From the NCBI RefSeq assembly GCF_026151205.1, contig NC_087081.1, positions 17,778,859 through 17,842,858 of the forward strand: a stretch of DNA of 64,000 nt. The letters run 5' to 3'. The position numbers and the translations under genes were made by a program. Below are positions 33,009-52,422 of this stretch, in pieces. This DNA is from Bolinopsis microptera (Eukaryota > Ctenophora > Tentaculata > Lobata > Bolinopsidae). Position 1 is the first letter of the stretch, and the number at the start of each line of letters is the position of its first letter. The notes beneath the pieces were generated by a model. The model did not search any database, was not told where the DNA came from, and saw only the letters and a list, made by a program, of their open reading frames with translations.

Positions 33009-35605
33009 AGCCCAAAAAACCCAAAAAAAACCAATCCCAGTATGACCTTTTTCAGGGTAGGAGTTGGGTTTTTTTGGGTTTTTTACAAATTTTTCATTTA
33101 ACTATTATATATATACGGAATCATGAAAGAATGTAGATGCATGTAATAGGTAAATGTCGAACTTAACACCAAATATACACATTCAAGAATGAAAACATGA
33201 TATAGCAACAGTTTTTGAAGGAAATAAAATCATGTAGGAACCTAGCAAAATAATTATCAGTACAACATCACTGCTGTGGTTCATCACTACAACATCACAA
33301 TAGATAAAATCGCTTACATGTCACTCGAAAGTAGTATTTTATTCACTGATGTGCTCAGAAGAAGTTGGCCAATCAGATATGATTTCAGCCATATGTAATG
33401 CTCACCTTGATGCACAAGGCAAATTGAGTTAGTAGGGACGCAACTCACTGATGACCCCAACCCTGACCGCAACCGGTACGAGAGGAATAAAGCCTTTCCT
33501 CTCACCTTCACGATCTCTGTTTCCGTTTTCCTTATCTTCCTCTTAACATGAATCCATGCTCTATCTCCAACTGAAAGAATCTTGCAGTTACCATCAGCTG
33601 CATGATCACATGTGATATTAAGTGATATCTTCGCTTGTTTATGGCCCTGGAATCGCTTAAATATTGACTGGGATGGCATTCGATCTCGCCCTCCATTGAG
33701 GCAAACCTCAACAGCCGTATCATGATGCAGAGCATCACCATACACAGTTACTATGTTCGCCCATTCATCTAATGAGTCAATATCCTCCACATCCTCTTCT
33801 TCGTCATCTGTTTCCGCTTCATCACTCTCTGTTACGTCAGAAGATGGTTGAAAGGCCTCTCCTTCAAAGCTACAGTGTTCTTGAAGGAGTTCTCTACCCC
33901 TTGAGACTCCCTTCTTCATAGCTTGTTTTCAACCTTGAGATTGAAGTATCTTTACCTCTATATAGTTTATCTGCTTTCGGATGCGGTATAACAAGCTTGT
34001 TGCGAGAGTGGGCAACTGTTTCAGGGATCAAACTTTTGCCGAGTGCATCAAGCTCGAGGGAACGGTTTGATTTGCCCATGCCAACCAACACATCCTTAGA
34101 ACACAGATTAGTTTTAATGCCAGCATGGAGGCCTATGCGCAGGAAAGCATAAAGTTGCTCGAAGGCATCGGATGTAAACAGCCAGGGTATAAAGTGTTGG
34201 TCACTGTTGTCAGCTGTTACACTGAGGATGTACAGCATCAGATTCTCGACTGCAATAATCGCATCATCAAACGTTTGACAAGTAGGCATGTGCTTTGACC
34301 TGCCCTTGAGCTTCGTCATAGCTTCTTTCCATGATAAGAGAACAGTTCTTACAACCGTCATGTTAAACACCCTATCCTCGGGGCACATAGACTTATCGTA
34401 AAAAGCGCACAGCATCAGGTAGATTAGTTCCAACCAAAGACCTGTACCATGAAAACCCTGATCATAAAAACTTTCATAGTGAAATACTATGTCAGAAACG
34501 GCACTGGGATCTTGTTTATCAGTTAGCAGTATTGCACTCTTAGGGACCTTTTCTTGAAAAAGTTGGTTCTTCTTAAATATTTCAAAAATAAGGTCCCATC
34601 GCACAACATACTTATAGCGCTCCTCAAATATGACCTTTGATGGGTCACAAAAGAGCACTAACCTGGTAGTCAGGCATTTCATATTATTTCGCATCTTCTT
34701 TATTGCATGGGGAACGTCCTGCATCGGCAACTGCTTTAATTTAATTCCTAGTCCATAAACAAAGGGAAACTCTATCAGAGTTCCTTTACTGAGCCAATCC
34801 AGTATTGTTGACATTAGTTCGTTTGTGCTGTAACCGCTGAAGCTTTCTCAGCCGAGAGTCACCATCACCCACGACTCACGAGGCTCGATATTTTGACCCC
34901 GACACCGGCAGCTAGGGAGGTTACTGTATCGTGGATTGTTTGCAGCTCCTCACTTCCCATCTTGGTTCCAACTGGGTACGTACCGAGGCAATTATTAAAA
35001 GACCGTATACACAGCGGAACTAGGATAAGCGACGAAACTTGTGTAGCAGATGTAAGAAGTCCCGTTCGCTGAAGATCAGGGACTGATTCTAACCCGTTGA
35101 TTACCTTTCCCTGTAGAACGAGGGTGTCCTCACTGTCTGCTTGTCTTTCCAGATTAATCTCGGTTTCCTCGTTTATCAAGTGATCTTTCGACACTCCCAG
35201 TCTCCACGTAGTTTAACCAGTGAGGGGCCATTGCTTTTATCATCTTTGCACTTTTTGCACCGCAACACATCGATGTTGCCACATTTGGCACATTTCCACT
35301 TACTTCGTGCATTCATATGGATTATATCTCGATGAACTAGACATCCTGTTTGCTATCGTGATAACATACTATTGATATAAACACACTTATATAAACTATC
35401 TATTAAGTTAAGACATGAGAACAACACGTAGGTAAGACTCAGTGGGAAATAATTCACATTCAATACAACAAATGAAATGGCTAGAATTTTGTTTAAATTT
35501 TGTTTAAAAAACCCAAAAAAACCCTAAAAAACCCAATCCCAGTATTACCTTTTCTTGGGTAGGAGTTGGGTTTTTTTGGGCTACACCCCCCCCCCCCCCT
35601 TATTT
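32970..35605 (-). mobile_element. 2.6-kb TIR DNA transposon of unrecognised family, 6-bp target duplication
   Basis: The element (32976-35599) interrupts the 37-bp satellite. TTATTT flanks both sides (32970-32975 and 35600-35605), and removing one copy plus the element restores a normal satellite unit. Both ends start with a G run (32 bases left, 14 right as C) followed by TAGCCCAAAAAA-CCCAA. Inside each end an imperfect palindrome of A-rich and T-rich blocks surrounds AATCCCAGTAT and GGGTAGGAGTTGGG, the latter in direct orientation at the two ends. The interior carries a broken minus-strand coding region. Confidence 0.8.
33314..35316 (-). pseudogene. Broken coding region of the TIR transposon (unrecognised protein)
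   Basis: Reading minus strand from an ATG at 35316: a zinc-ribbon-like start with CAKC and CKKC pairs (frame ends at a TGA near 35178), then a second frame (35194-34865), then 34814-33894 (306 codons), then 33919-33314 (201 codons). The frames overlap or nearly join, and the shifts fall at or beside homopolymers, for example GGGG near 33894. One ~660-residue protein with four frame breaks is therefore likely. The last part holds an acidic stretch (DEEEDVEDIDSLDEW). I do not recognise a DDE or other transposase motif. The breaks may be decay or uncorrected sequencing indels. Confidence 0.6.
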
Positions 35606-35685
35606 ATTGTAATAGATCAGTAGCAGGGTTTAGTTGTTACCTATTGCAACATCCTGTGCAACTCATTTACACCTCAACTATAGAA

Positions 35686-35787
35686 GGGAATAGTAGCACC
35701 TACCTTAGACCTCTGAGAGAAGTGATAATGTACAGTATAGGGAATAGTAGCACCTACCTTAGACCTCTGAGAGAAGTGATAATGTAC
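35686..35787 (-). repeat. 54-bp duplication of the exon 2 splice donor
   Basis: A 48-base block occurs at 35740-35787 and 35686-35733, separated by 6 bases. It contains the last ten codons of guanylate kinase exon 2 and the GTAGGT donor. The distal donor (35703-35698) would extend exon 2 by 54 nt (18 residues) with no stop. The period equals that of the acceptor repeat at exon 3. Confidence 0.92.
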
Positions 35788-35845
35788 CCCGTCTTGCTCT
35801 CCCTGTCGGGGAGACCGTGTGGTGTGAGACACCGAGAAACCAAAC
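35758..35845 (-). CDS. GUK1: Guanylate kinase exon 2
   Basis: The acceptor TTTGGCAG (AG at 35847-35846) precedes 88 nt that complete the split Arg codon from exon 1. They give [19 protein letters not shown], then [10 protein letters not shown]. The donor is GTAGGT (35757-35752). [10 protein letters not shown] and the VHYHF tyrosine form the GMP-binding region in the family. The 3' part is duplicated downstream, which gives a second in-frame donor. Confidence 0.94.
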
Positions 35846-36427
35846 CTGCCAAATGTAATTATCAATTATAGGCCACAATCTTTTTGCATCCTAGTACAGA
35901 ACTTTAAGGAAACATATTGCCTTCTTAGCCGATTTTGGTGATATAATTTTTTAATTTTTCATCTCTTCAAGCCTCAATATGAACAGTGAAACTCGATGCA
36001 CGGTGGCTCACAGTGGGCCAGAATAGGGGGGCAGGCTATATTAGACATGTTAGTACCATCCAAATATGTCTGCAAGGTGTTCTATAGACTGCTTTGGCCC
36101 AAAAAAACGATCTAAACCAATTTCAAGACCCTACTTAACACAAAAACTGAGAAAATTGGGGAATTTTGAATTATGCTCCTTGAATTTTTAGCCCCAAAAT
36201 TCCCAAAAATTCAAAATTCCTTACATAAGCCACAAAACCAGTTTTGAGATGCTTTACTTGTAGCTGAACGCTTACAGGACTTGTATTTAAAATTTCATCA
36301 AGGTTGAACAAAAGATGGCAGAGTTATTACAAAAATATGTATGCCCATATTTGGGCACAAGCCCCAAATAACATAGTTTTAGCCAATAAATTGGTAAAAA
36401 ATCGGCATTTAAAAAAAATGCCCAAGG

Positions 36428-38020
36428 ATGCCCACCACAATTTTTTTATATGTTGTAGGGAATCCTCTAAGCTTTCAAATGGTACCAAGGAATAGGCCGG
36501 CAAAGGCCGGCAATTTAACTATTTTTGGGCTGGAAGCGACTGAAGATGACCTTCAGTTATGCAAGCAATCCAAGCAGAAAATGCTACGTGCACACATTCT
36601 TGACAGTCATAAGTGTACCTCTACATTAACCGAAACTACTGACAAACTTATCTCTCTAACTCAAATTTTTTCGAGATCGTCCACTGATGCGATGACCGGC
36701 CTCCAGAACACTGTTAGTGAAGCACAGTCCCTTGTCCAGTCTCTACGTGACCATTCTGCTCACCCTCCTACTCAACCTACAACCACCCTCCCCGAAATAC
36801 CTGCACCACCAACACCGGTCCAGACTGTGGAACAGCCCTTCTCCAAGCTCGAAACTGGTGACCAGCTGCAGAGGTTTGACTTTAAGAGATTGGACTCTGA
36901 ATTAACCTATGATAAAGTTTTCTCGAATAGAAAGGTTGCATATTTTGGCGATGCTCCTTACAAGTATTTAGGAGGGTACCACAGGGCAAAGCAATTAGAC
37001 CCTGAGACGTACCTTGCTGAAATACTTGTAGCAGTTGATGATGTGTGCAAGACCAACAACATCAACTATAAGGATTTCAATAGCTGCATGATCACCAAAT
37101 ATGAATCACACGTCTCGTGTATACCTCCTCATTCCGATGATGAATCGTGTATAGTACCCGACAGCACTATACTTACCATTTCCCTGGGGGGTAAAAGGGA
37201 TTTAGTTTTTCGTAGACGTCCTCCAGGCGAGTATCGCGATGAAACCGTGACAGTTCAACACGGCGACTGTTACACTATGACGCGAAAATCGCAGGACCTT
37301 TTTGACCATGCTGTTCCTCCGCAAACTCAGGCGGATTTTGAAGGTCCTCGAATCAGCTTAACCTTTAGACAGTTGGCCTCGGCACATTCCAGAAAATCTA
37401 GCAGCCATCAGCTGCGACCTCTACCCCATCATAAAGTGAACCAGACCAAACGAGTGCTGATACTGTCTGACAGCAAAAACTGTAATTTTGACTGTTCTCA
37501 ATTTCGTTCACCTGTCATAGCGTTCCGGGAAAACTTATTTTTCCTCCGCGACTTAAAGGAACACCGGGAATCGATTCAACAAGCCGACATTGTACTCATA
37601 AGTGCTGGCATAAACGATATCCAGAAAAACAGAGCGAGTGCCGTCCTGCTGCATAATCACATCAGAAGTTTCATAGAACAGTTCCCGCGCACTATGTTCT
37701 TATTCGATGCAGTCAGTCCACTATCGATACATGCTGACCGATTCAACACCCACAACGACATTATCCAGTACCTTAATGAACTCATGTTTAAGTGCTCCCT
37801 TCACCATGACAACTTCAGACTCTTCGACAACTCAAGTTTTAGTCTCGCTCACCTCGCTCGTGACGGTCTACATCTTAACTATATTGGACAGAGTGTATTA
37901 TCAGATTGCTGGGTAAACTGTGTGCTCATTGGACTGGGGTTCAGGCGTGGACCCCTACCTCTACGTGAGCACTTTAAACGTATGATATCTTATCCAATCC
38001 CTGGCCACTTTGGCACCTGA
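36428..38020 (+). CDS. LINE-A ORF1: AlkB-type dioxygenase plus SGNH hydrolase domain
   Basis: The frame opens with ATG at 36428; the ATG at 36479 (MVPRNRP) may be the true start, because upstream sequence could belong to the host element. Numbering from 36428 (530 residues): 1-150 is a non-conserved, Pro/Thr-rich leader. 155-316 is an ALKBH2/3-like 2-oxoglutarate/Fe(II) dioxygenase with PHSDDE (His235, Asp237), distal His294 (FDHAVP) and RISLTFR (Arg308-x5-Arg314). 340-500 is an SGNH-hydrolase fold with SDSK (Ser block), AGINDI (block III) and DGLHLNYIGQ (Asp/His block V). SGNH domains occur in the ORF1 of CR1-type LINEs. An AlkB domain in such an ORF1 is not something I know to be described. 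Expected activity is oxidative removal of alkyl or methyl groups from nucleic acid. Confidence 0.9.
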   Translation: MPTTIFLYVVGNPLSFQMVPRNRPAKAGNLTIFGLEATEDDLQLCKQSKQKMLRAHILDSHKCTSTLTETTDKLISLTQIFSRSSTDAMTGLQNTVSEAQSLVQSLRDHSAHPPTQPTTTLPEIPAPPTPVQTVEQPFSKLETGDQLQRFDFKRLDSELTYDKVFSNRKVAYFGDAPYKYLGGYHRAKQLDPETYLAEILVAVDDVCKTNNINYKDFNSCMITKYESHVSCIPPHSDDESCIVPDSTILTISLGGKRDLVFRRRPPGEYRDETVTVQHGDCYTMTRKSQDLFDHAVPPQTQADFEGPRISLTFRQLASAHSRKSSSHQLRPLPHHKVNQTKRVLILSDSKNCNFDCSQFRSPVIAFRENLFFLRDLKEHRESIQQADIVLISAGINDIQKNRASAVLLHNHIRSFIEQFPRTMFLFDAVSPLSIHADRFNTHNDIIQYLNELMFKCSLHHDNFRLFDNSSFSLAHLARDGLHLNYIGQSVLSDCWVNCVLIGLGFRRGPLPLREHFKRMISYPIPGHFGT

Positions 38021-38847
38021 GCACGACGTATTTTATATCTTAATGTAAAATTATCATGACAAAAATATCGAATCCTGAACAACTTTCCAGACTCGCGCTG
38101 AGTCGCAAACAATTTCACTAATCAAACAAACGTAACTTATTTGAACAAACTCTTACCATATTTTTAAAATTTTCCGTCATTTCAAATCAAAATTAGAAAC
38201 TTAAATCAAATTCAAACTCAAGCACAAAGCACATAATACAACCAACTACTTAAACGAACTTTTCCCTTATCCAGATTCCCTACCTTCTCACCTTATCTAT
38301 CACACCTTATCAGCAAAACGCGAAATAAACCCTGCTTGATAATAGTCCACGTCCCTACATCATAACAATCATTTCATATTATCTAATTCCTAACCTCATG
38401 CCGTACTCAGACAACGACGACGCAATATTTACACGATATCTACACAGATATTTACACAGTACTCATTATACATACATCACACATTACTGTACATTTGACT
38501 CTGTACATTTGACTGATCTGTACATTTGACTCTGTACATTTGACTCTGAACATTCGACACATACATTACTGTACATGGAAATTAGGCTCATGCACGGTGA
38601 GCTGCTGCCATCAAGTAATAGAAGAGAAGTTAAAGGTCAATCATAAAGGTAAAGGTGAAGTTTACTTAATTACTGTAGATAAGTCACGGTACTTTCTACA
38701 CACAGGACTGAAAGTCTTCGTTAGAAGTATCTGACTAGGTCACGTTATTGTTATCATATTTTGTATAAATAGTAAGTCTATACTCTCTTAAATATATCAT
38801 AATATAACTATAATACTAACGAATATAATACATTATCTCATAGTTCT
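38021..38847 (+). other. Region between the two ORFs of LINE-A
   Basis: 827 bases without a credible frame. It includes repeated TGTACATTTGACTC blocks (38487-38550). It may contain an internal promoter or re-initiation signal for ORF2, but nothing recognisable was found. Confidence 0.5.
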
Positions 38848-41800
38848 ATGAACGAATCTCAGCGTTGCAACAAATGTAATACACGTATTCCTAAAGCACG
38901 TTCGTTCCTAATTTGCAGTCACTGCGACAAAATAAAACATATGAAATGCATGAAGTTATCTAAGTCTGAGGCAAAAATAATTGTAGATTCTGGCTCTGCC
39001 TGGATATGTTATGACTGTATCTCCAGCGCCTTACCAGTAAATGCATGCCCCTCGGCAAAGCCACCGAGACAAGGGCCCGTCATAGGTCCTAAATTTAAAG
39101 TTCAATGCACATGCTGTAATGGCTGGATTTACTCCCCCGCCAACCTGAAAACCTGCCACTGGTGCGAATCTAAAGTACATACCAAATGTCACTCCGACTT
39201 ATTAGGATGCAGAAATTGCTGTGAAAATATGATCCCGGGATACTATGTACATTGCTATCAGCTATACTCATTACATACACATACTCACACCGGCGTAATC
39301 CACAATCCCTACGATCGCTATCAGTTGATTAACGAAATAGGAAATACAATTGACCAAGATCAGGAACTCGAATATTGGAATGAGATTTCTGATATTTTAG
39401 TTAGCTGCAATTACATGGAGCCGACAAATGTAAGTTCGTCAGGACCATGTGATCTTAAGATATTTACCTTAAACATACGGGGACTTCTTAAAAACGTAGA
39501 CAAATTAAGAGAAGATATATTCACGTACTCGAAGTATGATGTCCTTTGTTTTAACGAGACTAATCTCTTGCAGGATAAGCTTCCTAATGGTATTAATGAC
39601 CTAGTGCTTGAGGGATTTTATGAACCACTGTTACGAGATCCAATACGTAGTTCTGGTCGTGGTGGGGGTTTAGCAATTTATATCAATACGCGCGTATGCG
39701 AGTCTGAAAATATTGAAAAATTCTTTCCCCAAAACTTTGATGTGACAGACAAGAGTGGTGAATTCATGTTGGTAAAACTCCATAACTGCAAAGGCTTTAA
39801 CAAAACAAAGATAATCGTCAATATATATCGGTCACCAGCATCAAAAAATCCTGATAATTTTAACAAACTCATAGACTCCCTATTACACGGCATGGAAAGG
39901 CACTCGAGAAAACATACTATATTAGTCGGTGATTTCAATGTAGATCTTACACATTATGATACTGACAAACATTGTCAAAATTTGATTGAAACTATGACTA
40001 AATACGGTTTCTTTCAGCTAGTCTCACGTCCCACACGTATCACTGATCACAGTGCCACTCTTATAGATCATGTTTACAGCAATAACGTACAACACACACA
40101 CAGCTGCAATGTTATTACTGTTGACCTGTCTGATCATCTAGCCACTCTTGTTACTATCTCACTTGGGCAATACAGCCACATTGCAGGGAGTAGAAACAAA
40201 CGACACAGAGTCGACCATGGAATGAATATTGAAAAACGTATGTTTAACGAGTCGAACAACCTTAAATTTATAGAATTAATTGGATCCGAAATGTGGGAGG
40301 AAGTCACACGTGAAAATTGTGCTGATGAACAATATAACAAATTTATTGAAATATACGGTCAGCATTATGATGAGGCATACCCAGTGAAAACCAATCATGT
40401 GCGCCGCAAATTTGAAAGGCAGGACCCCAAACCTTTTATGCTACCCTGGCTTGAAATTGCATGTGCTCGTAAAAACAAATTATTCCATGCCAAAATAGTG
40501 GACCCAACGGAGGAAAACTACAAGGCTTACAAAAAGCATAAGGCATTCTGCGACAAGCACGTCAATAAGGCAAAAGACAAATACTACAAAACACAATTTG
40601 ATAAGTATAAAGATTGTTCAAAGAAACAATGGCAGCTGATCAACACTCTACTTGGCAGAAAATCTAAATCTCATAACAAAATTAAACTCCAAAACGCCGA
40701 CGGAAATATTATAAATAGTGACAGTGATGTAGCTGAGCACTTTAACTCTTACTTCTCCAACATTGCCACAAAAATCAAAGATGCGATCAGCGCGCGTACT
40801 GTATTCGATCCAGGGGGTTTTAAACATTACCTTAGCAGCCCAGCTTCGCAGTCTATGTTCGTAAGACCAACTACCGAAAGTGAAGTTGAACAAATTATTA
40901 GCAAGCTTAAGAATAAATCCACTCAAGACACTAAAATTGAACCCCTAAAAATTGTAAAAGACTGCCCCTCCTTCTGTAAAGTCTTGTCCATAATCATTAA
41001 CACATCATTTAGTCAAGGTATCTTCCCATCATCTCTCAAAATAGCTAAAGTTATACCAATTCACAAAGGAGGCAGCAAATCCGACGCCACTAACTATCGA
41101 CCCATATCTTTGCTGTGCACCTTTTCCAAATTGTATGAAAAACTTATGCATAATAGAGTAATGGACTTCCTTGACAAGAAAGGCTCGCTCTTTGAAGGGC
41201 AATATGGCTTCCGGCCAGGCCGATCCTGTGAGCATGCTCTTTTGGATGCTCAACACACGATTCTGAATTCCCTTGCCAAAAAGGAAGTTGCTCTATTACT
41301 CCTAGTCGACTTTAGTAAAGCTTTTGACGTTTTGTCTCATGATGTATTGATTGACAAACTCCAGCACTATGGAATCCGTGGGCAAGCTTTGCAATGGTTT
41401 AAATCCTACCTGAGCACACGTCAGCAATACGTATGTTTGAATGGTATTAAATCAGCTCTTAAACCTATTACATACGGAGTTCCACAGGGCAGTATTATGG
41501 GACCTTTGTTATTCCTAATCTACATCAATGATATGCCAAATATCAACAGTATGATAAAGTTTATACTCTACGCTGATGATGCGAACATCATAATAAAAGG
41601 CAAAAATGCAAACGATGTTATACAAAAATTCAACCAATTCTCCCACGAGTTTGTACGCTGGGTTGACTGTAATGGACTTGCACTTAATCTAAAAAAGACC
41701 TGCTATATGCTTTTCGGTGTTAGAAATACTGATAATACTCCAAATATTCATATTGCAGACACACAATTAGAACGTAAAAGGGAAGCACGGTTCCTTGGCG

Positions 41801-42507
41801 TTATAATGGATGATAAACTAACATGGTCTAAGCATATAGCAGCTGTTAGATCAAAAATGATGCGGTATGTAGGAATTATGTATAAAATAAAACGTCACCT
41901 ATCGATTCAAATAAGGCTACAGATATATCAAAGTTTTGTTCAATCGCATTTAAACTTCTGTTCAATTGTATGGGGGTTTGCAGCAAAAAATCACATTGAA
42001 TCACTCTTCTCACGACAAAAACAGGGTATCAGGGCAGTAATGCCAGGTCACATTAATTACTTTTACAAAGACGGTCGACTGCCAGAACACACAAAACAAT
42101 TTTTCAATAACAATGGTATACTCACGGTGCACAGTGTTATTGTAAAAAACACACTAATTCTCATGCACCGAATCAAACATTTCCGCAGCTCAGTCCCTCA
42201 ACAAATCTGTATGACTATCCCAGAAAATGCACCCACTGCAAACTCAGATCACGTGACTGCAGCATCCTGGTTAGCCGAGTACAACACCACACATTTCAGA
42301 TCTTCGATGTTCTTCAAAGGACCTTTACTCTCAATTTATGCTGTAAATGCAAATGTAAGCACCCTACCCACACTTTTTTCCATAAACCTTTTTAAATCGG
42401 CTACAAAACGCATGCTCTTGAACCTGCAGAGTGAAAATGACGATGACACGTGGCCCAGTTTCTTATTACATAATATTCCAGGTCTAAGAAGGTCACAACG
42501 TGTCTGA
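38848..42507 (+). CDS. LINE-A ORF2: PHD-like zinc fingers, AP-endonuclease-like nuclease, reverse transcriptase
   Basis: 1219 residues with a clean ATG and no internal stop. 7-57 is a PHD-type finger (CNKC, CSHC, H/C, CYDC). 87-125 is a second Cys/His cluster (CTCC, CHWC, HTKC, CRNC). 203-440 is an endonuclease/exonuclease/phosphatase domain with Asn209, Glu237 (NET), GDFN 361-364 and SDH 428-430. 730-960 is a reverse transcriptase with NYRPISL, DFSKAFD (Asp821), GVPQGSIMGPLLF and YADD 908-911. RT sequence style places it in the CR1/L2/Daphne/Crack assemblage. The protein nicks target DNA and performs target-primed reverse transcription. It appears intact and possibly active. Confidence 0.95.
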   Translation: MNESQRCNKCNTRIPKARSFLICSHCDKIKHMKCMKLSKSEAKIIVDSGSAWICYDCISSALPVNACPSAKPPRQGPVIGPKFKVQCTCCNGWIYSPANLKTCHWCESKVHTKCHSDLLGCRNCCENMIPGYYVHCYQLYSLHTHTHTGVIHNPYDRYQLINEIGNTIDQDQELEYWNEISDILVSCNYMEPTNVSSSGPCDLKIFTLNIRGLLKNVDKLREDIFTYSKYDVLCFNETNLLQDKLPNGINDLVLEGFYEPLLRDPIRSSGRGGGLAIYINTRVCESENIEKFFPQNFDVTDKSGEFMLVKLHNCKGFNKTKIIVNIYRSPASKNPDNFNKLIDSLLHGMERHSRKHTILVGDFNVDLTHYDTDKHCQNLIETMTKYGFFQLVSRPTRITDHSATLIDHVYSNNVQHTHSCNVITVDLSDHLATLVTISLGQYSHIAGSRNKRHRVDHGMNIEKRMFNESNNLKFIELIGSEMWEEVTRENCADEQYNKFIEIYGQHYDEAYPVKTNHVRRKFERQDPKPFMLPWLEIACARKNKLFHAKIVDPTEENYKAYKKHKAFCDKHVNKAKDKYYKTQFDKYKDCSKKQWQLINTLLGRKSKSHNKIKLQNADGNIINSDSDVAEHFNSYFSNIATKIKDAISARTVFDPGGFKHYLSSPASQSMFVRPTTESEVEQIISKLKNKSTQDTKIEPLKIVKDCPSFCKVLSIIINTSFSQGIFPSSLKIAKVIPIHKGGSKSDATNYRPISLLCTFSKLYEKLMHNRVMDFLDKKGSLFEGQYGFRPGRSCEHALLDAQHTILNSLAKKEVALLLLVDFSKAFDVLSHDVLIDKLQHYGIRGQALQWFKSYLSTRQQYVCLNGIKSALKPITYGVPQGSIMGPLLFLIYINDMPNINSMIKFILYADDANIIIKGKNANDVIQKFNQFSHEFVRWVDCNGLALNLKKTCYMLFGVRNTDNTPNIHIADTQLERKREARFLGVIMDDKLTWSKHIAAVRSKMMRYVGIMYKIKRHLSIQIRLQIYQSFVQSHLNFCSIVWGFAAKNHIESLFSRQKQGIRAVMPGHINYFYKDGRLPEHTKQFFNNNGILTVHSVIVKNTLILMHRIKHFRSSVPQQICMTIPENAPTANSDHVTAASWLAEYNTTHFRSSMFFKGPLLSIYAVNANVSTLPTLFSINLFKSATKRMLLNLQSENDDDTWPSFLLHNIPGLRRSQRV

Positions 42508-43020
42508 AAGTTACTGGACACAACGGTCATTATATCAGTTTAGTGAATTAGTTAATTAGTTAATTAGTAAATCAGTTATTAGTCATATGGTTATTATTAA
42601 GTACTATATATTATATGATATTACAAAAATAAACTATGAATATATATTTACACACAAAAAAAACCAGAACAAACTGATCACAGACTAGCGGCAACTAATA
42701 TTAATGGATAAGCCACACATCCTAAATTCCGGGTCCATATTTACACTGCCACATTCCCCACTATCACTATTTTCCTATCAGCACAAACCGTAATTAATTG
42801 ATTTCAACAATCACAAACACTACATATCCAAACGAATGGCATAACATAGCAATATCTACGATATCCTAAATCAGTCCCTAACAAACTTAGCGCGAGTCTG
42901 AAAGGCTGTTGGAAGCACAGAGTGCTCCATATTTTGTTTTTATCAATAAACCTTTTTTTTTTTCATTTTCTTTTTTTTATAAATTTATTAACTGCGTGCA
43001 AATTTGTGTTTCAGATTTGA
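42508..43020 (+). other. LINE-A 3' untranslated region
   Basis: AT-rich, non-coding. AATAAA-like signals occur (CAAAAATAAACTATG near 42625 and TCAATAAACC near 42943), followed by a long T tract (42951-42976). The junction with the CACAGTG-ended element is probably near 42980. No poly-A tail was seen. Confidence 0.5.
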
Positions 43021-43616
43021 TCTATTTATGATATATATTTATGATTATGTAAAAAAAAAAAAAGGCCAAAAATTTGCCTAAAAATGGGGCAAAAATTCAG
43101 GCTCATGTCAAAAATCAGCTATATTAGATAGCCTATTAAGGTTTTTTCCAATAAATGAAGGTTTGAGAGTTGTTTGAAGATATAAAAGGAGTCAATTTAC
43201 TTTAAATAATCTTATTTAAGGAACAGACATAGAGTAAGAGCTATTTTTCACTGCCAAAAAGAAACAAAATCAATTTTTGAAAAATCGCAAATTTCGCGGC
43301 CGCGTAGCGGTTAAACCATATGGAATTTTTAATTTCGGTTTTTTGCATTCTGTAGGGGACCAGTTTTCCTATCAGATTATTTAAAATACATCCTAAACTA
43401 ACAAACTCATTTTTGGACCTAATATAGCCTGGTGGCCCACTGTGTGGCTTTTGACCTGTTTCTGCACTTTCCGCATTTGGAATTTATTGGCTATCTGACT
43501 AATATCAATATGGACACTGAAAACGCGAATTTTGCCTCATTGGGAAATTTTCGAGAGCATGCAAAGTGTTTTCTAGACCAGGCTTTTACCTCAGGCTGGC
43601 TACGACACTGCCTATT

Positions 43617-43692
43617 ATAACACACATAATGCCGGCACGCACAGGGATTATATTTCAATTTTTCCGGCGACGCGCAGGAAAATTTGATAATA
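43617..43692 (+). repeat. Dispersed repeat, satellite-free copy (partner of 26410-26485)
   Basis: It reads ACACACATAA, then GCCGGCACGCACAGGGATTA and an AT-rich tail, matching the right edge of the 13-kb satellite. Here it immediately precedes a large inverted repeat, so it may be the end of the same foldback element. Confidence 0.7.
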
Positions 43693-43711
43693 ATTTCGTA
43701 ATGAAAATAAG

Positions 43712-43965
43712 TATGGTATCAGCTTTTTTGAAATAAATTTTACAGAATCGTAATCAGCTTGATAAGACGAATCTTTTAGTACCAAGTAGGTGCTTTTAGA
43801 AGAGAAATTGTCTTAAATAATTTTCTAGCTCCCTTGTATAAATTTGTTACTAATTTTTTTACAAATTTTGTGTCTTCAAGTATTATAAATTTGGTACTAA
43901 AAGATTCGTCTTACCAATCTGATTACGATTCTGTAAAAATTATTTCAGAAAAGCTGATACTTTTT
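43712..43965. repeat. Long inverted repeat (75-bp arms)
   Basis: The left arm (about 43712-43785, TATCAGCTTTTTTGAAATAA to GATTCGTC on the other strand) is about 90% complementary to the right arm (about 43891-43965). The loop is roughly 105 bases. A transcript would form a long double-stranded stem. It is probably a foldback-type MITE with no coding capacity. Confidence 0.85.
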
Positions 43966-44531
43966 GAGTAATAGGTATTTTAAGCCTTAAATCTGCCATT
44001 TTTGGCCTTTTTTACGATGAATTTTACTAAGTCGTTTGAGGCCACATTTCATAGCTTAAAACTCAAATCTGAGAGCCATCCTACTTCAAAAAGTTGTATA
44101 TGATCATCAGCTACACTCACAAGAATTTTTGAAGCGATATCTGCTGACCCGGGTGATTGGTGAAATGTACAACTTTAGAAGTAGAAGTAAATTTCAATTT
44201 TTCTTATTTCGACCTTGTTTGGTCTGTAACTTCGTCATTTATTGTTCAATTATATAATCCTTTTAATGGCTTCTTGTACGGATTGTAAGTAATGTTCAGT
44301 AAAAAATCAGCCAAAAAACGTTTCGAATGATTGAAAGATCAGTATTACAGTGACAGACTTCTCAAAATTTCCAAAACTTTCGAAAAAGAAAATATTTATT
44401 TTTTCGAAAGTGAGTGCTCTCAAAAATAATTTTTAATGTATCAAATCTTATTGGTTTTATGTATAATTATACTTTCTTAATATGAAGTTAACAACAGGGC
44501 CACGGCATAAAAGCTTTTGGTGTATGTCCCC
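43966..44531. other. Intron 1 non-coding sequence
   Basis: AT-rich sequence with no frame or repeat that I can assign. It lies between the long inverted repeat and the TTAA palindrome. Confidence 0.5.
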
Positions 44532-44577
44532 TTAAGGGGAGATACACCAAAAACGTTTTTGGTGTATCTCCCCTTAA
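44532..44577. mobile_element. 46-bp TTAA-flanked perfect palindrome (minimal MITE)
   Basis: Two TTAA sites (44532-44535 and 44574-44577) enclose a perfect 38-bp palindrome with half-site GGGGAGATACACCAAAAAC. The left TTAA is preceded by another inverted half (TTTTGGTGTATGTCCCC, 44514-44531). The pattern therefore looks like two tail-to-tail copies of the same TTAA-specific terminal repeat. TTAA specificity suggests a piggyBac- or Kolobok-type source. Confidence 0.75.
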
Positions 44578-44788
44578 GCGTGCCAGCGTTTTGTGTTATA
44601 AAGTTATAAACCCCTCCGGGTTAGAATAAGATTCTGATAATCCCGGCTCCCGCTAGATAAATTCTGATAATCCCGGCTCCTGCTGTTAGTTTTTTCCCGC
44701 TGAATAAATAACCCCGGCAACAACAACAAACAACAACAGATTATATTATTTTAGTTAGTATGGACATGAATGTTACGATTGCAGTCTA

Positions 44789-44831
44789 TTTATTTATTAC
44801 AATATAATATTATTATATTGTAATAAATAAA
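44789..44831. repeat. AT-rich perfect hairpin
   Basis: TTTATTTATTACAATATAAT is followed, after one or two bases, by its reverse complement. This is a strong cruciform or hairpin candidate at the end of the LINE fragment that follows. Confidence 0.75.
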
Positions 44832-44894
44832 CCGGTTTCAAAGCCCTTAAGGGTGGCCCTCGGGTCTTTAAAACAAAACAAAAGTAGAGATCGT

Positions 44895-45003
44895 TACAGT
44901 AATCTAAACATGACACGACTAGACTGTGAACGATGATCTTAATCTGTTTGGGACTTGATAGAAATCTGATTTTTCTGATATGACGTAATGTATGAAACAT
45001 TTC
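44895..45003 (-). pseudogene. Fragment of a LINE reverse transcriptase C-terminal region
   Basis: The minus strand reads LRHIRKIRFLSS, PKQIKIIVHSLVVSCLDYCN and LYF. The pattern (LRxIRxFLS, LVHSLVxSxLDYCN) is the familiar region after the RT palm in CR1/L2-type LINEs. About 35 residues remain, so it is a dead 3' fragment within guanylate kinase intron 1. Confidence 0.75.
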
Positions 45004-45183
45004 TTCTTGAGATTTAGATGAGTAAGTACAAATTTTGTGTCCAAGTTTGATCCTACTTTAAATGGGTGTTTATTGATTTATTTTTAATTGAGCATTGTGT
45101 TTTACATTATAAGCTATATAGAACTTACAATTAGTAGGTTAGTGGTAATCTTGAAGTACCTTGTGTTACATTTAAAAACTCAC

Positions 45184-45311
45184 CTTTCAGGGTAGGACTC
45201 AAACAGTTTGTTGAGAAGAGTACTCTTCCCACACCCAGAAGGTCCGGTGATCACAATGAGATATTTAGAGGGAGCACATGCTGCTGCACCCATTGTTTTT
45301 CTTGCTAACAT
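45184..45311 (-). CDS. GUK1: Guanylate kinase exon 1 (P-loop)
   Basis: ATG at 45311-45309, or the internal ATG at 45293-45291. The exon encodes MLARKTMGAAACAPSKYLIV, then ITGPSGCGKSTLLNKLFESY, then PE and two bases of a split Arg codon. The donor GTGAGT (45183-45178) is consensus. GPSGCGKST is the Walker A loop that binds ATP phosphates. Family members usually start only a few residues before the VLSGPSG strand, so the second ATG may be the main start. The longer N-terminus (basic, Ala-rich) could be a weak organelle signal. Confidence 0.94.
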
Positions 45312-45925
45312 TTCTTAGCTCTTGGTAAGAGGGACAGTTATTGTATAGAATACCAAACATACAGTCTTATGATCTATGGAAATATTTTGCTGCATAATAC
45401 AATCCCAGAGTAAGTCCTCTGAATTGAATTGAAAAGTTCCTCCTGGCAAGCCAGGAAGGTGCGCCCCAAATAAGCATAGATGAAGGGGCCTCTGGGGGTC
45501 TCGGTCTGTGCAATCTAAAGAACTGTAAACTGGACTAGCGGGCTGGACAGCCTCAATAAAGGGGTGACCCAGGTTCAAGAAAACAACAAATTTCAAGAAA
45601 ACAACAAATTTTTATTTAAATCAATTATAGCAACAATTTGAAAAACTTTAAAGTTCTTCTATTACCATGGAATATACTACGGGTATGGTGACTTGGGCTA
45701 TTGAGTTGTTAAGTAGATTAAGATCAGGTTGTCAGATATTTGATAAATCCGCTCTGTGACGTCACTTAATTATTATCAAAACAAATTGAATAACATTCTG
45801 TTATCATGGGAAAAATGTTTAATGGAGCGCGCTAATTGATTATGTGCCTTTTGTAGGATGGGCACATGACTCGTGTAGTTGATGTTTAACTGTGGTCACT
45901 GGTCATGTGTCTGTGCGTGCGTGAC
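45312..45925 (-). promoter_or_regulatory. Upstream region of guanylate kinase (putative promoter and 5' UTR)
   Basis: By position, transcription must begin here or beyond. No TATA box or initiator could be assigned with confidence. A minus-strand frame at 45596-45315 is open but has no recognisable homology and is more likely 5' UTR or intergenic repeat. TTTCAAGAAAACAACAAA occurs twice (45573-45610). Confidence 0.4.
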
Positions 45926-45929
45926 CAGA

Positions 45930-46755
45930 GAATAAAAAAACCGAAGAACCACAACTTATTCTGCCTTTACTTAAGGAATATGCCACAGATGAGAGAGATA
46001 TCCTTGAACTCCCTGTTCGATGTGGAGGCCTAGGTATCATCAATCCTGTCAGGATAGCATCTCGTGAATATACATACAGTGGCACTCACTAAAGATCTTG
46101 TGAGTTTAATCAACCAACAAGACCAGGGTATCACCAAGCTGGATATGGGCAAGATGAAAGAAAAGAAAGAAGAATTGAGGAAACAGAAAGAAGAGTTTCT
46201 ATCCCAAAAGTTCAAGATGCTTTATAATTGTGTCAGATCATCTTCTTAAAAACCACGTAACCAAGCAAGAGAGAAGGGAGCTTCAACATGGCTTTCAGCA
46301 TTACCTCTAAAGGACCTAAAAAATGTTCTAAACAAGCAAGAGTTCCAAGACAGCATACGCCTACGCTATGGTTGGAAGTTCCAATGAGTGCCCTCTAAAT
46401 GTGCCTGCGGAAATGTGAACAGTGTCTAGCACGCCCTTGATTGTAAATTAGGTGGATACGTTTCCATGTGCCACAATGCCATATGAGACGCTGCAGCTTT
46501 CTTCCTTCAAGAAGCAAAGTGTAATGATGTAAGGATCTAGAACGTGCACTCCTGCCTGTCCAACAAACTTCATTCTCCAGGAAGACCAACACCCAGGATG
46601 AAGCCCGTCTTGATGTAGCAGCTGTTGGACTGTATGCACCATTTGAAAGAACATTATTTGACATCAGGGTAACTCATCCTAATTGTGACTCAAATACGTT
46701 TAAGCCACTGGATAAAATTTACAGTGCACATGAGAAAGAGAAGAAATATCTATTA
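45930..46755 (+). pseudogene. Decayed retrotransposon fragment (RT C-terminal region with CxCG zinc motif)
   Basis: Pieces in three frames follow the order of a family common in cnidarian, mollusc and lancelet genomes: ELPVRCGGLGIINPVRIAS (about 46010-46065), a Lys/Glu-rich helix (46140-46210), GASTWLSALPLKD (46278-46315), QEFQDSIRLRYGW (46338-46376), CACG with HALDCKLGGY (46402-46455), and DVAAVGLYAPFERTLFDIRV (46613-46672). In-frame stops and several frameshifts break it. The exact superfamily (DIRS-like or another) is not settled from this fragment. Confidence 0.7.
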
Positions 46756-47551: not shown

Positions 47552-48604
47552 ATGCCAACACTGCCCGCCAACTTCCTCGCCTTACTGCAAAACTCATCTC
47601 TTGAAGTAAAGCAACACATGCATACCCTACTTACTCAGAGTATCCTGGACAGTCTGAAAGAGAAAAAGCTTGCTTCTAAAATAGAACGTATAGATGAAAA
47701 GAAGAAGGAAAAGAAAACGAAGAAGGAAACTACTGTTCAAAATGTCTCGTATAGCCCACATGCGCTCGTAGAGCACGTTCCAGTCCTCCCTGGAATGGAT
47801 GAAAATCTATTCAAGAAAATCACAGAAGAATTAGATTTAATGAATCTTGAAGGCAAATCTAAAAAAGTCCACACCCTATGGCTAAGCCCTTCATCAGAAG
47901 ACTACTGCTTTGGTAACATAGTTAACAAGCCACATCCCATCAACAACTTCCCTAGCATCTTTAAGTTGATGGGACTTATTAATGACCTCCCCTCCACCAC
48001 CAACAACATGGATGCTTGCCTTGTTACTAGGTACGACACTCAGCAAGCTAAGTTAAGCCTCCATAAAGACGATGAAGACCTAATAATATCACAGTCCAGC
48101 TCCATTTGCACTTACTCAATAGGGGCTCCACGGTCACTTGAGTTTGTGCTCGATACAACCCAAGTAGAACAACGCACAACTAGGGCCTCTAGGTCAAGGT
48201 CAGCCCAAGAGTTGATTAACGCAGACTTCACCCTTCCTGCCACCAATGGCACACTGAACATCATGAAGCCTGGTGCACAGCAAGTCATGAGGCACAGGAT
48301 TGCCCCAGGAGTTGCACCTTCTGACAATGAAATTTGTTGGAGGTATAGTCTCTCCTTCAGAAAGTTAACCACACCTTCCTCTTCCCCTTCATCTCCTATA
48401 CATCCCTCTCCAAAACTGTTTTACCTTGATGTTTTTTGGGCTTTCTTAGACCGCTATGGATACAGAAACGAGAGATTATTTCCTAAATGTGACAATAGGG
48501 GCTTTTATGATATTCATCCCAGTCCCAAGGCTGGGATGCCAGTGTTGGCAAAGTTCTATCTCAGAATCATACACTCAAAGTGGTTTAATCCATTGGGATA
48601 CTGA
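47552..48604 (+). CDS. LINE-B ORF1: AlkB-type dioxygenase with SGNH remnant
   Basis: 350 residues from a clean ATG. 1-60 is helical and Lys-rich (KKKEKKTKK). 105-272 is an ALKBH2/3-like dioxygenase: RYDTQQAKLSLHKDDE gives His171-x-Asp173, distal His248 (RHRIAP), and RYSLSFR gives Arg264-x5-Arg270, the pattern that binds 2-oxoglutarate in E. coli AlkB (RYNLTFR). 285-345 (FYLDVFWAFLDRYG, then DIHPSPKAG) resembles the end of an SGNH hydrolase whose front half is missing. Domain order matches LINE-A ORF1, but the sequences are strongly diverged and the RTs belong to different LINE groups. Confidence 0.85.
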   Translation: MPTLPANFLALLQNSSLEVKQHMHTLLTQSILDSLKEKKLASKIERIDEKKKEKKTKKETTVQNVSYSPHALVEHVPVLPGMDENLFKKITEELDLMNLEGKSKKVHTLWLSPSSEDYCFGNIVNKPHPINNFPSIFKLMGLINDLPSTTNNMDACLVTRYDTQQAKLSLHKDDEDLIISQSSSICTYSIGAPRSLEFVLDTTQVEQRTTRASRSRSAQELINADFTLPATNGTLNIMKPGAQQVMRHRIAPGVAPSDNEICWRYSLSFRKLTTPSSSPSSPIHPSPKLFYLDVFWAFLDRYGYRNERLFPKCDNRGFYDIHPSPKAGMPVLAKFYLRIIHSKWFNPLGY

Positions 48605-49199
48605 TGTGGTAATTCAATTCAATATTTAAATTTTTCATTGTCTGCATCAGTATCCTATTGGATCTGATCATTTGGATGTTATTTATATGTATTCAAACGA
48701 AGTGATAGCATAATGTATGTTACTTCATATTATAGCACAATACCTAACAAAACACAACGGCGAGACACAATTCTGTTAATAATATACTTTAAAGTTCCAT
48801 GGGAATATCGGCTCAACAACACCGTGTTGCAACTGGTATGTTTTCTAGGTATGTTATCATCAGGAAAAGTAATAGAGGTAACGGGGAAAATTTGTTGTCC
48901 TGTCTTCTGTCTCGTCATATGTTATGTGCTCTATTGGGTATATTTTATTTTTATGTTATTTTGTATATATTTTCTTTGACTATCGATGCTAATATACTCC
49001 CTGGTGCTCCCCTACAACCTAAAATACACTCTGTACCATGTTTGAGGTCATCCATAAATCTTTACTTTATGGTAATATTTTGTACCATTTTTCTCAGACA
49101 CTTTAAACTTGTGTATAGGGGGGAGGGGGCATTGGGACAGCCTTAGCTGCAATTTCTGTAAAATTGCTATCTACCTCAAAAACCGAACTGTCACCTACC
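48605..49199 (+). other. Region between the two ORFs of LINE-B
   Basis: AT-rich, no convincing gene. Short hydrophobic frames (48713-48979 and 48799-49146) are not conserved-looking. The start of ORF2 is uncertain, because the ORF2 frame is open from 49164 but the first ATG is at 49200. Confidence 0.5.
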
Positions 49200-51412
49200 A
49201 TGTCACCGAAACAGACTGTTAAGTTACTTTTCAATATAACCAGCAGCTGGCTTGGGGTCATGTCTAGGTGTGGTCTGGTTTTTCTATCTCTCCTTAATAT
49301 TTCCCTGATAGTAATTTGTAATTGTTCCTTACTGAACCCTGGACCAAATTTATCCGTTGTTTACAATAATGTCCATGGTTTCCTAAATACACGCGATTTA
49401 GCATCAGGAACACCACCACTAAATATGACCAAGATACATGAATTCCATGGTTATATCTACAAACATAAGCCTCACATCATTATTCTAAACGAGACATGGC
49501 TGAAAAATTCCATTCTCAGTAATGAGGTGCTCCCTGACAAATACAAAGTATTTAGGCTTGACCGATCCTTAAGATCGCATCCAGTGGATGCAACCCAGCC
49601 CAAGAAATTCAGAAAAAACGGTGGTGGTGTTCTGATTGCCCATAGAACAGACATTGATATCTCGAGTCTAAAGTTCTCTAAAGTAAGTGTTCAAGCTGAA
49701 TTATTATCCATCATAATTAAGACTCAGTGTGGAAGAAACTTTTGTATATCAACATTTTATAGAGTAGGAACGCTTGGATTAGAGAATTTTGAATCTTTCA
49801 AGAAACATTTTGTTACTTTAGCATCTGCCAGAAAATTGCAAAGGCACATTCTGGTAGGTGACTTTAATTTGGCTTCGATTTCCTGGCCAGATGGTCAGTC
49901 ATCTTGCCAGCTACATTCTAGCTTTGTAAATTTTCTCACTGATGACCTCGGACATACACAACTTATTAGCTCCCCTACTCACAAGTCAGGCAACACCTTA
50001 GATCTTGTGTTCACTAACATTCAAAACCTTATTAAGAATGTTAAAGTTTTAGATCAAAACGAAATGTGTATGTCCGACCACTTTTGTATCACATTTGACA
50101 TTGATATTAAGACCAAGTATATTAAGCAGCCTAAAAGAAAGATCTTCAATTATAGTAAAGGTAATTTTAGGGGCCTGAATTCTGAGTTATTTAGCATCGA
50201 TTGGGATAGTATATTTGAGTGTAATGATCCTTATCTTGCCTGGAGTCGATTCAGAGGAGTTCTCGGTGCAGCCTGTGACCGATGGATCCCTAAAAAGACC
50301 ATTAAGTCTCAGTTCCAGCCCCCATGGTATGACTCCGAATGTGATCGTCTCCTACGAAATAAGGAGAAATGGAGAATAAGGCATAAGGGGAGCAACTCTG
50401 AGTCTCATAAACAAAAGTTTCGTGCATTTCGCACAAAATTTAAAAATTTGATGGACGAAAGAATGAGACTCAGTGTTGAGGATGACTCCGATGATGCTCT
50501 TATCTCCAAGAAATTCTGGACCTACGTTAAATCTAAATCAAAGTCAACCAGGATCCCTGAAACTGTCAAATATCACAATCGCTTTCGAAACAATCCATCT
50601 GATCAAGCTGCCCTTTTTAACGAATATTTTTATGAGCAGTTTTCTCAAGAGAGCGATTATGGCATTGACATAGATTTTCGTGATGATTGTTTTTCAAGTC
50701 TTGTGTTTAGTAGAGAAGATGTTCTGTTGATTCTTAAAAAGTTAAATCCTAACAAGGCCCCTGGCCCTGATGGGATTCATGGGAGAGTCCTCAAAAACTG
50801 TGCCCAAAGCCTTGCATACCCACTTAGTGTTTTATTTAACCTGTCTTTCTCGAGCGGATGCATACCCCCTGATTGGAAGCTGGCACTTGTAGTACCAGTG
50901 CACAAAAAGGGCGATAAGTCTTCGGTTGAGAACTACAGGCCTATCTCGTTAACATCTCTTGTAATGAAAGTCTTTGAAAGGTGCATAAAGACTGCATTAT
51001 ACGCTGCATGTTCTGATCTGTTGGATGACCGACAACACGGTTTCGTTAATGAACGTTCATGCACAACCCAAATGATACCTTTCACGGACAATCTTGCACT
51101 TGCATTGAATAACAGGTCCAGGACTGATATAATATATTTTGATTTTGCGAAAGCTTTTGATAGCGTTTCGCATGACCTCATTTTAAGTAAATTGAAGAAT
51201 ATTTTTAATGTCGATGGACTAATGCTTAAATTTATTAAGTCCTATCTTGAGGGGCGACAACAACAAGTAGTGATAGGAGGCCAAACGTCTTCTTCTCTAC
51301 CAGTTCGGTCTGGTGTCCCTCAAGGTTCTATACTTGGCCCTTTATTGTTTGTAATATTTATAAATGACATGTTCTCCTGTGTCTCTGAAGGCACCAATAT
51401 CGCCCTTTATGC
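49200..51412 (+). CDS. LINE-B ORF2, first part: endonuclease and RT up to the YA of YADD
   Basis: From ATG 49200 (MSPKQTV). A hydrophobic N-terminus ends in NCSLLNPGP; the NPGP recalls 2A-like ribosome-skipping motifs found at this place in some CR1/Crack LINEs, though the preceding DxE is missing. The endonuclease domain has NNVHG, LNETWL, VGDFN and MSDHF. The RT has LNPNKAPGPDGI, NYRPISL, FDFAKAFDSVSHD and SGVPQGSILGPLLFVIFIND. The protein breaks after NIALYA, where LINE-C is inserted; the following codons (LYRNAHV, stop at 51467) are LINE-C sequence. The ORF is otherwise undamaged. Confidence 0.93.
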
Positions 51413-52422
51413 CCTTTATCGTAACGCGCACGTTTTGTTTTGTTACAATTCCACCGCTCTTCAATAGTTCCAGAAAGTTCCAGAACAAAGATCACCTTCA
51501 AACACAACGTGCAAGACCCGGGCCCGGTGGTACCTGGGGCTTGCCCCCAGGTCCCATTCCTTCCTGAAAACCACCTGGGCCTCTTATCAGAGAGTAAGTC
51601 CCCACTTTCTTACTTTTCCCAACTCCTTTATTCCTCCTTCCCTACGTATCCCTAACCAGGCTCGGTGGTACCGCCCGTAAGGGCGGTCCTACTCTCCTCT
51701 CCTAAAAGCCACCCGAGTCTGGCTCACCAGTGTAAGCTTCCCCCATCATTTAACCCCCCTGCTGTTGAACCACTATCACTACTACAAACCTGCGATCCCA
51801 GTGCCAGTAAAATTCCTTGTTCTTTGTTTCACAAACTAACCACACTTTCCAACTCTCCGAGGACAAGTGAAGCTGGAAACACAACAACATGTGAAAAGCT
51901 AATCTACAGCAACAGCAGCAAGGAGACTACAGCAAGGAGAAAGGGGACACAAGATAATGAGCAGCTGAGTCCTTGCAAAATGACCATGAGTAAGGCGGAA
52001 GTTTCGAGATCATTTTATGCTCTTGTTACACTCCACATTTTCCACACACATGTGTGCAGTGCTTTATGTGTAATATTTTACACTGAGTTATCCGCCTGTG
52101 TGTACACGTTCTATTTTGCTATTTACATAATATGTGCTGCTAACAAAATTACCAACATCATGATGTGTCTAGCTTACTGCTTAGAAAAAGCAAATCTTAA
52201 AGTAAGCTCTGACACTGGTAAAAACGTTCCGCGGCGCAGGCCAGAACAGCTGGCCTCTCGCACCCTGAGCTCCGAAATGGTAGCCTGTGCTAACCACCTC
52301 TCAACAAGCGGGGAATTTAGCAATACTTACCCTGCTAAATTAACCGCTATTTCCGGGAGAGCAGATGCTGCTCAGCAGCAGCAGCCTTATACATTACACA
52401 CTATGTATAATATCGGATATAC
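51413..52422 (+). other. LINE-C 5' region with two tandem structured RNA motifs
   Basis: Motif 1 (51521-51581): outer arms GGCCC+GGTGG with CCACC+T+GGGCC, inner hairpin ACCTGGGG/CCCCAGGT with loop CTTGC. Motif 2 (51656-51722): outer arms CCAGGCTC+GGTGG with CCACC+C+GAGTCTGG, inner hairpin ACCGCCC/GGGCGGT with a GTAA tetraloop. Both share CGGTGGTACC and a pyrimidine-rich joint ending in AAAA. Stem sequences differ while pairing is kept. The remainder up to 52422 has open frames without recognisable features. Confidence 0.7.

Follow-up and report, generated by a model that had tools for sequence, protein, structure and literature searches.

An AlkB-type dioxygenase joined to an SGNH hydrolase in the ORF1 proteins of LINE retrotransposons from the comb jelly Bolinopsis microptera

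Results

A LINE copy with an AlkB-SGNH ORF1

We analysed a stretch of 64,000 nucleotides of the Bolinopsis microptera genome (assembly GCF_026151205.1, contig NC_087081.1, positions 17,778,859 to 17,842,858 of the forward strand), hereafter the window, containing a long interspersed nuclear element (LINE), LINE-A, whose first open reading frame (ORF1) encodes an AlkB dioxygenase. An original prediction made from the letters alone had described the ORF at 36428-38020 as an AlkB domain fused to an SGNH hydrolase, followed by an intact ORF2 with PHD fingers, endonuclease and reverse transcriptase (RT). The fusion was confirmed by a strong AlkB profile match, the predicted fold and the catalytic ligands, and the ORF2 by Pfam, its PHD match falling below the cut-off. 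The features of the element are as follows.

36531..43056, forward strand: LINE-A copy, 5′-truncated, with start and end common to sister loci
36428..36530, forward strand: flanking DNA, in frame by chance, forming codons 1-34 of the 530 amino acid ORF; no match to sister copies
36608..36754, forward strand: long helix of the ORF1 protein (ORF1p), likely a coiled coil, residues 61-109 (AlphaFold model)
36842..37375, forward strand: ORF1p AlkB dioxygenase domain, residues 139-316 (strong AlkB profile match)
37448..37936, forward strand: ORF1p SGNH hydrolase domain, residues 341-503 (Pfam E=2.3e-4, sub-threshold; fold)
38848..42507, forward strand: LINE-A ORF2, 1219 amino acids, PHD, endonuclease and RT (ORF list, Pfam)
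38866..39018, forward strand: ORF2 PHD finger, residues 7-57 (Pfam PHD E=1.4e-4, 22.3 bits, below the cut-off of 24)
39466..40137, forward strand: ORF2 endonuclease, residues 207-430 (Pfam Exo_endo_phos E=1.2e-12)
41077..41805, forward strand: ORF2 RT, residues 744-986 (Pfam RVT_1 E=6.8e-35)

Comparison of window positions 34000-46000 with 13 sister loci by BLASTN delimited the copy. Matches started at 36531 in 10 of the 13 loci (at 36653, 36841 and 37166 in the remaining three) and ended at 43056 in nine, the others stopping earlier, L017 and L020 at the edge of the fetched stretch; L020 gave additional unrelated matches at 43.7-44.4 kb of the window. Identity over 36531-43056 was 97-99.7 %, which rules out a host AlkB gene merely lying beside a LINE. 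A run of 13 A residues (43051-43063) marks the 3′ end, while inspection of the flanks by eye revealed no clear target site duplication. An ORF1 of 530 amino acids starting MTESTER... is present in 10 of the 13 fetched sister loci, their N-termini being mutually alike and unlike that of the window copy. Of these ten, eight could be anchored for an upstream comparison and two could not; the mutual alignment extends approximately 320-340 bp further 5′ in six of the eight (about 305 bp in L016 and 107 bp in L018). Because the sister loci share the start at 36531 and remain alike further upstream with an N-terminus of their own, the window copy is 5′-truncated and its first 34 ORF1 codons are flanking DNA rather than part of the element. 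The predicted length of 530 residues thus holds for ten sister copies, each with its own 530 amino acid ORF1, but not for the element in the window. An apurinic/apyrimidinic-like endonuclease and RT in ORF2, the 5′ truncation, the A-rich 3′ end and copies on many contigs identify LINE-A as a LINE. Recent activity of such elements is possible, since both ORF1 (530 amino acids) and ORF2 (1219 amino acids) remain open in seven of the 13 fetched loci.

In ORF1p, an esterase-type ORF1 protein, the AlkB dioxygenase almost certainly follows the N-terminal helix and precedes the SGNH domain; Pfam detected no RRM in the window ORF1. The AlkB domain has the AlkB fold in the predicted structure, with iron ligands H235, D237 and H294, the 2-oxoglutarate arginine R308 and the AlkB arginine R314. 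The SGNH domain had been described as possessing all of its blocks; the catalytic S349, N396, D479 and H482 are indeed present, but the block II glycine is absent in the class of ORF1 to which the window copy belongs.

AlkB-SGNH ORF1s form four classes

Genome scans covered the 264.65 Mb assembly containing the window. The window ORF1 (P0001) gave at least 81 matches, itself included. Ten places besides the window match its residues 30-530 at 99-100 %, and the remainder comprise fragments and subfamilies of mostly 47-60 % and 28-32 % identity, in many of which a frame of 500-660 codons is open. A scan with the Pfam AlkB model PF13532, in which 150 of 587 candidates were scored, gave at least 151 matches, host genes and fragments among them, all of those listed being above the cut-off. 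We could distinguish four classes of AlkB-SGNH ORF1, A to D, each seen adjoining an ORF2 with endonuclease and RT. Class A includes LINE-A; class B is represented in the window by a second element, LINE-B, whose ORF1 gave 117 matches in the assembly, many of them two pieces of a single copy; class C, with a cysteine-rich N-terminus, gave 63 (query P0055). An AlkB ORF peculiar to the window locus is ruled out by these matches, which include further LINE-A copies and other LINE families. The AlkB LINE of the original prediction is accordingly real, but it is one of many families rather than a single element.

The LINE-B features of the window are the following.

47552..48604, forward strand: LINE-B ORF1, of class B, which retains AlkB but has lost most of SGNH (hhalign to class A 97.3 %)
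49164..51467, forward strand: LINE-B ORF2, endonuclease and RT, 3′ part missing (RVT_1 E=2.3e-23, Exo_endo_phos_2 E=3.4e-11)

An in-frame deletion of approximately 459 bp at 48411/48413 has removed most of the SGNH coding sequence of this copy, while six sister copies (L034-L039) contain an ORF1 of 503 amino acids. From the translations of window positions 51500-63310, LINE-B ORF2 seems to break off near 51.5 kb and to continue from 62507 with a C-terminus like that of a further element, L026, as if a third LINE had inserted there. This third LINE (53988-62141) gave no AlkB match; it encodes a 916 amino acid ORF1 whose C-terminus weakly resembles OSK/SGNH (E=0.036), and its endonuclease region is repeated, 300 bases being identical at 57095 and 58855.

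In a public protein set we found 55 matches for P0001, 72 for the LINE-B ORF1 and at least 37 for a mixed profile of eight proteins from classes A, C and D. The precomputed PF13532 label was carried by all 55 P0001 matches, by all 37 listed mixed-profile matches and by 41 of the 72 LINE-B matches, the other 31 being fragments or too diverged for the label. The sole class A homolog with a named animal source comes from another comb jelly, Mnemiopsis leidyi. No relative was found by tblastn among pattern matches from viral contigs (P0001 and A1, an alignment of 47 of the 54 class A-like proteins P0001-P0054, seven fragments being dropped) or from genome contigs (A1).

Several AlkB matches fall outside these classes or are of uncertain source. 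P0050, a class A AlkB-SGNH fragment on a 1.4 kb contig, is filed under a Planctomycetes metagenome-assembled genome and is likely to be eukaryotic contamination. At L043 (G000:C10:16875000-16877400) an AlkB domain that keeps the host-like Asn lies within a very long, repeat-rich frame of 3388 codons, and five further AlkB matches of the PF13532 scan lie in frames of 2200-3400 codons. Four proteins of the flatworm Macrostomum lignano (P0160-P0163) have AlkB matches (E 5e-30 to 2e-27) and gave no SGNH match; in P0163 the AlkB domain is followed by three zinc knuckles, and the same pattern finds a single one in P0162. We take these knuckles to be those of a gag-like LINE ORF1, and the Macrostomum proteins possibly represent an independent capture of AlkB.

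Conservation of the two active sites

The HxD...H...RxxxxxR ligand pattern is invariant in all 47 aligned class A proteins. With gaps omitted, the five AlkB positions (H, D, H, R, R) are kept in 53/53, 53/53, 54/54, 54/54 and 54/54 sequences of class A (set P0001-P0054), in 64/65, 65/65, 71/71, 70/71 and 71/71 of class B, and in 22/22 at every position of class C. In class B, P0060 has no HxD and a Tyr for the iron histidine, and P0075 reads HKDQE. The corresponding SGNH counts are S 54/54, N 54/54, D 52/52 and H 52/52 for class A, S 70/70, block II Gly 70/70, N 70/70, D 63/67 and H 66/66 for class B (again with gaps omitted), and S 21/22, N 22/22, D 21/22 and H 22/22 for class C. The AlkB site is more uniformly kept than the SGNH site across all classes, because class A lacks the block II Gly (40 of 47 proteins have no Gly at all between S349 and G394) and the Asp column is Asn in all four aligned class D loci. 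A further feature concerns the N-x-Y motif, whose Asn in the cellular proteins is replaced by Thr or Ser in 52/53 class A (all Thr), 64/65 class B (50 Ser, 14 Thr) and 22/22 class C proteins (all Thr), and by Thr in the four class D loci.

Selection on the AlkB domain

Synonymous sites in AlkB are saturated between subfamilies (pS ~0.8), making dN/dS unusable at that distance, and variants were instead counted against the majority codon within five groups of near-identical copies (13 A, 3 A2, 6 B, 2 D and 2 A3 ORFs). In the AlkB domain there were 21 synonymous and 8 nonsynonymous variants (omega ~0.11-0.14, p=5e-7 at kappa 3), compared with 16 and 11 in SGNH (omega 0.20-0.26) and 9 and 14 in the N-terminus and helix (omega 0.5-0.6); the copies share history and the counts are small, and variants arising after insertion would push omega up, not down. 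AlkB codons, for which neutral evolution had been raised as a possibility, are therefore under strong purifying selection, and the low omega together with the kept ligands rules out a decayed or neutral passenger domain. By plain conservation in the 47-protein alignment SGNH ranks highest (0.68), followed by AlkB (0.60) and the helix (0.41).

Relationship to cellular AlkBs and exchange of ORF1

Searched against all PDB chains, the class A profile (47 proteins) matched only ALKBH3 (1e-27, 100 bits) and ALKBH2 (6e-22, 81 bits) of the AlkB family at E<=1. The class B profile gave ALKBH3 (2e-14), ALKBH2 (6e-10) and the esterase of the LINE ZfL2-1 (4c1b, 5e-5); the class B alignment A3 comprised 46 of the 72 class B matches. 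Among AlkB folds the class A and class B models likewise fit ALKBH2 and ALKBH3 best; structure scores for the two are tied.

We constructed a 38-row AlkB tree with E. coli AlkB as outgroup from nine of the 54 proteins P0001-P0054 (P0054 under D), 12 of 73 class B and 3 of 22 class C proteins, eight LINE ORFs of this genome and cellular homologs; P0060 and P0075 were omitted from this tree and from one built without the outgroup, which alone contains the long-branched L043. In the rooted tree classes A-D form one branch (96/95) beside the human ALKBH2 and ALKBH3 and their counterparts in this genome, the latter being L041, grouped with human ALKBH2 (99/85), and L042, grouped with human ALKBH3 (97/88). 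The retroelement AlkBs of classes A-D thus appear as a single clade, related to ALKBH2 and ALKBH3 but belonging to neither. The indication of a single origin comes from the rooted tree, because the tree without the outgroup, in which B (99/98), the four cellular proteins (100/99) and A-C-D (81/87) separate, leaves it undecided. It is further weakened by the long branch of E. coli AlkB and by Macrostomum P0163, which could equally belong to the retroelement clade, as forcing it to join classes A-D costs 0.21 log units (approximately unbiased test, p-AU 0.488).

Comparison of ORF1 and ORF2 indicated exchange between lineages. L026 has a class A ORF1 (44 % to LINE-A) but an ORF2 with 46 % identity to LINE-B and 25 % to LINE-A. 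On an ORF2 tree of elements of this genome, rebuilt without the very long branch of the LINE-C row, it joins LINE-B at 100/100, and uniting all elements with a class A ORF1 is rejected (p-AU 1.4e-6). One AlkB-SGNH ORF1 has thus moved onto another RT lineage, and the architecture as a whole occurs on several RT lineages. L032, with a class D ORF1 and an ORF2 55 % identical to that of LINE-A, may be a second exchange, although the topology with no exchange is not rejected (p-AU 0.294). Horizontal exchange of ORF1 between LINE lineages has been proposed earlier (PMC4120745).

Other features of the window

A 13-kb tandem array (13362-26422) consists of 363 copies of a 36-bp unit at 99 % matches and gives rise to giant false ORFs. 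An ORF of 695 amino acids at 6480-8567 has no Pfam match at E<=1; by eye it has a GIY-YIG-like end and the look of a Penelope-type RT.

Discussion

Proposed function of the AlkB domain

The enzyme class of the ORF1p AlkB is well supported, whereas its substrate and role are inferred. The domain is likely to be a catalytically active nucleic acid dealkylase, and its substrate is probably of the N1-methyladenosine (m1A) or N3-methylcytidine (m3C) type rather than the N6-methyladenosine (m6A) type. ABH2 and ABH3 both act on m1A and m3C, and ABH3 prefers single-stranded DNA and mRNA (PMC11431407). Methylated nucleosides hinder reverse transcription, and AlkB is employed in a sequencing method to counter this (PMC8053708). 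We suggest that ORF1p, which would bind the RNA of its own element in a ribonucleoprotein particle as ORF1 proteins do, acts as a cleaner of element RNA or cDNA. The AlkB domain would oxidatively strip Watson-Crick-face methyls (N1-methyl-A, N3-methyl-C) off the element RNA or the single-stranded first cDNA, lifting a block to reverse transcription and so allowing the RT to make long copies. The SGNH domain would act separately by contacting membranes or lipids, a role proposed for the ZfL2-1 esterase. This proposal is drawn from the ALKBH2/ALKBH3 affinity, from the RT-blocking nature of such methyls and from the several kilobases of RNA which a LINE has to copy in one go at its target. We consider it the best explanation overall, with about an even chance of being correct; that the main benefit lies in helping the element's own reverse transcription is just short of evenly balanced.

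The main rival, which we consider unlikely, is that AlkB clears element RNA of m6A or some other host mark, permitting escape from restricting host readers or granules. The sole published retroelement AlkB that we found, from an orchid Ty3/gypsy element, removes m6A from RNA in vitro, and the authors of that work suggest such a role (PMC9289625), and host m6A affects L1, METTL3 aiding and ALKBH5 suppressing it (PMC7873242). However, removal of m6A lowers human L1 mobility (PMC7873242), so that erasure would be harmful there, and the sequence profile places the domain closest to ALKBH2 and ALKBH3, not to ALKBH5 or FTO. Of the two roles raised by the original prediction, protection of RNA or cDNA from damage thus seems to fit this affinity better than removal of a host silencing mark.

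Somewhat less probable is action on DNA, with AlkB repairing alkylated target or cDNA or removing a chromatin methyl mark where the element inserts; in some classes the PHD-like finger of ORF2 would act along with it. The activity of ALKBH2 on double-stranded DNA and the tied structure scores would be compatible with this, as would the PHD matches, all below the Pfam cut-off, at the start of the ORF2s of LINE-A and of the class D loci L029 and L030. Against it, no PHD match was obtained at E<=0.01 in the ORF2s of L026, L032 and the class C locus L045, the class A profile scores ALKBH3, which acts on single-stranded DNA and mRNA, above ALKBH2, and AlkB is located in ORF1 and not beside the endonuclease. 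Action in trans on host RNAs, altering host expression to the benefit of the element, is improbable, as ORF1 proteins work mostly in cis on their own RNA, although a trans role has been put forward for the AlkB that some plant RNA viruses encode and, as an alternative, for that of the orchid element (PMC9289625). That the AlkB fold is simply a nucleic acid binding module replacing the RRM is very improbable, since five catalytic ligands unneeded for mere binding are almost invariant across classes at 20-30 % identity, even though ORF1 types of related LINEs carry RRMs and zinc knuckles (PMC4120745) and the window ORF1 has no RRM.

For the cleaning of element RNA or cDNA a broader history can be envisaged, which we offer tentatively as something less than an even prospect: a single ancient capture of an ALKBH2/ALKBH3-like dioxygenase would have given rise to a swappable AlkB-SGNH module, now present in numerous LINE families within an early animal lineage and serving as a template-cleaning enzyme which removes RT-blocking methyls before target-primed reverse transcription, and the Macrostomum gag-like ORF1 with AlkB would be an independent capture.

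Comparison with known systems

The original prediction knew of no LINE with this layout, and in agreement we found no LINE with an AlkB domain among the open-access papers listed by our searches, a scope that excludes most subscription journals, Repbase and Dfam; an AlkB in a long terminal repeat (LTR) retrotransposon has been published (PMC9289625). A close counterpart in architecture is the type IV (esterase) ORF1 of CR1/L2 elements such as zebrafish ZfL2-1, which likewise has SGNH in ORF1, a helical N-terminal part and an ORF2 with endonuclease and RT (PMC3905857, PMC4120745), and whose solved esterase, 4c1b, is matched by the class B profile (E=5e-5). The main text of both papers contains no occurrence of AlkB, and PMC4120745 describes the esterase ORF1 as confined to vertebrate groups of its set. 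The oxyanion hole of ZfL2-1 is lined by the block II Gly, which class B has and the class A of the window does not.

The Phalaenopsis Ty3/gypsy AlkB, also retrotransposon-encoded and with intact ligands, provides a functional precedent in vitro, but it is an ALKBH5-like protein encoded by a separate ORF of an orchid LTR element (PMC9289625), whereas the AlkBs described here are ALKBH2/ALKBH3-like, are fused to SGNH in ORF1 and occur in many families of animal LINEs. AlkBs of plant RNA viruses, among them Flexiviridae, are also passenger domains with conserved ligands, for which protection of genomic RNA has been proposed, although unlike the LINE AlkBs they lie within polyproteins and involve no reverse transcription (PMC544882). 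The nearest relatives by profile and fold are the cellular ALKBH3 and ALKBH2, which have the same iron and 2-oxoglutarate ligands; the LINE AlkBs differ in forming a separate clade and in having Thr or Ser for Asn in the N-x-Y motif.

Significance

With these elements, the domains known from LINE ORF1s (RRM, zinc knuckle, PHD, esterase) come to include a catalytic nucleic acid repair domain. AlkB is no stray passenger here but is conserved, under selection and exchangeable in several LINE classes. The elements represent a natural source of AlkB enzymes paired with reverse transcriptases, a pair used by laboratories to sequence methylated RNA, and they make it possible to test whether methylation of RNA or cDNA truly hinders retrotransposition and is something that elements evolve to overcome.
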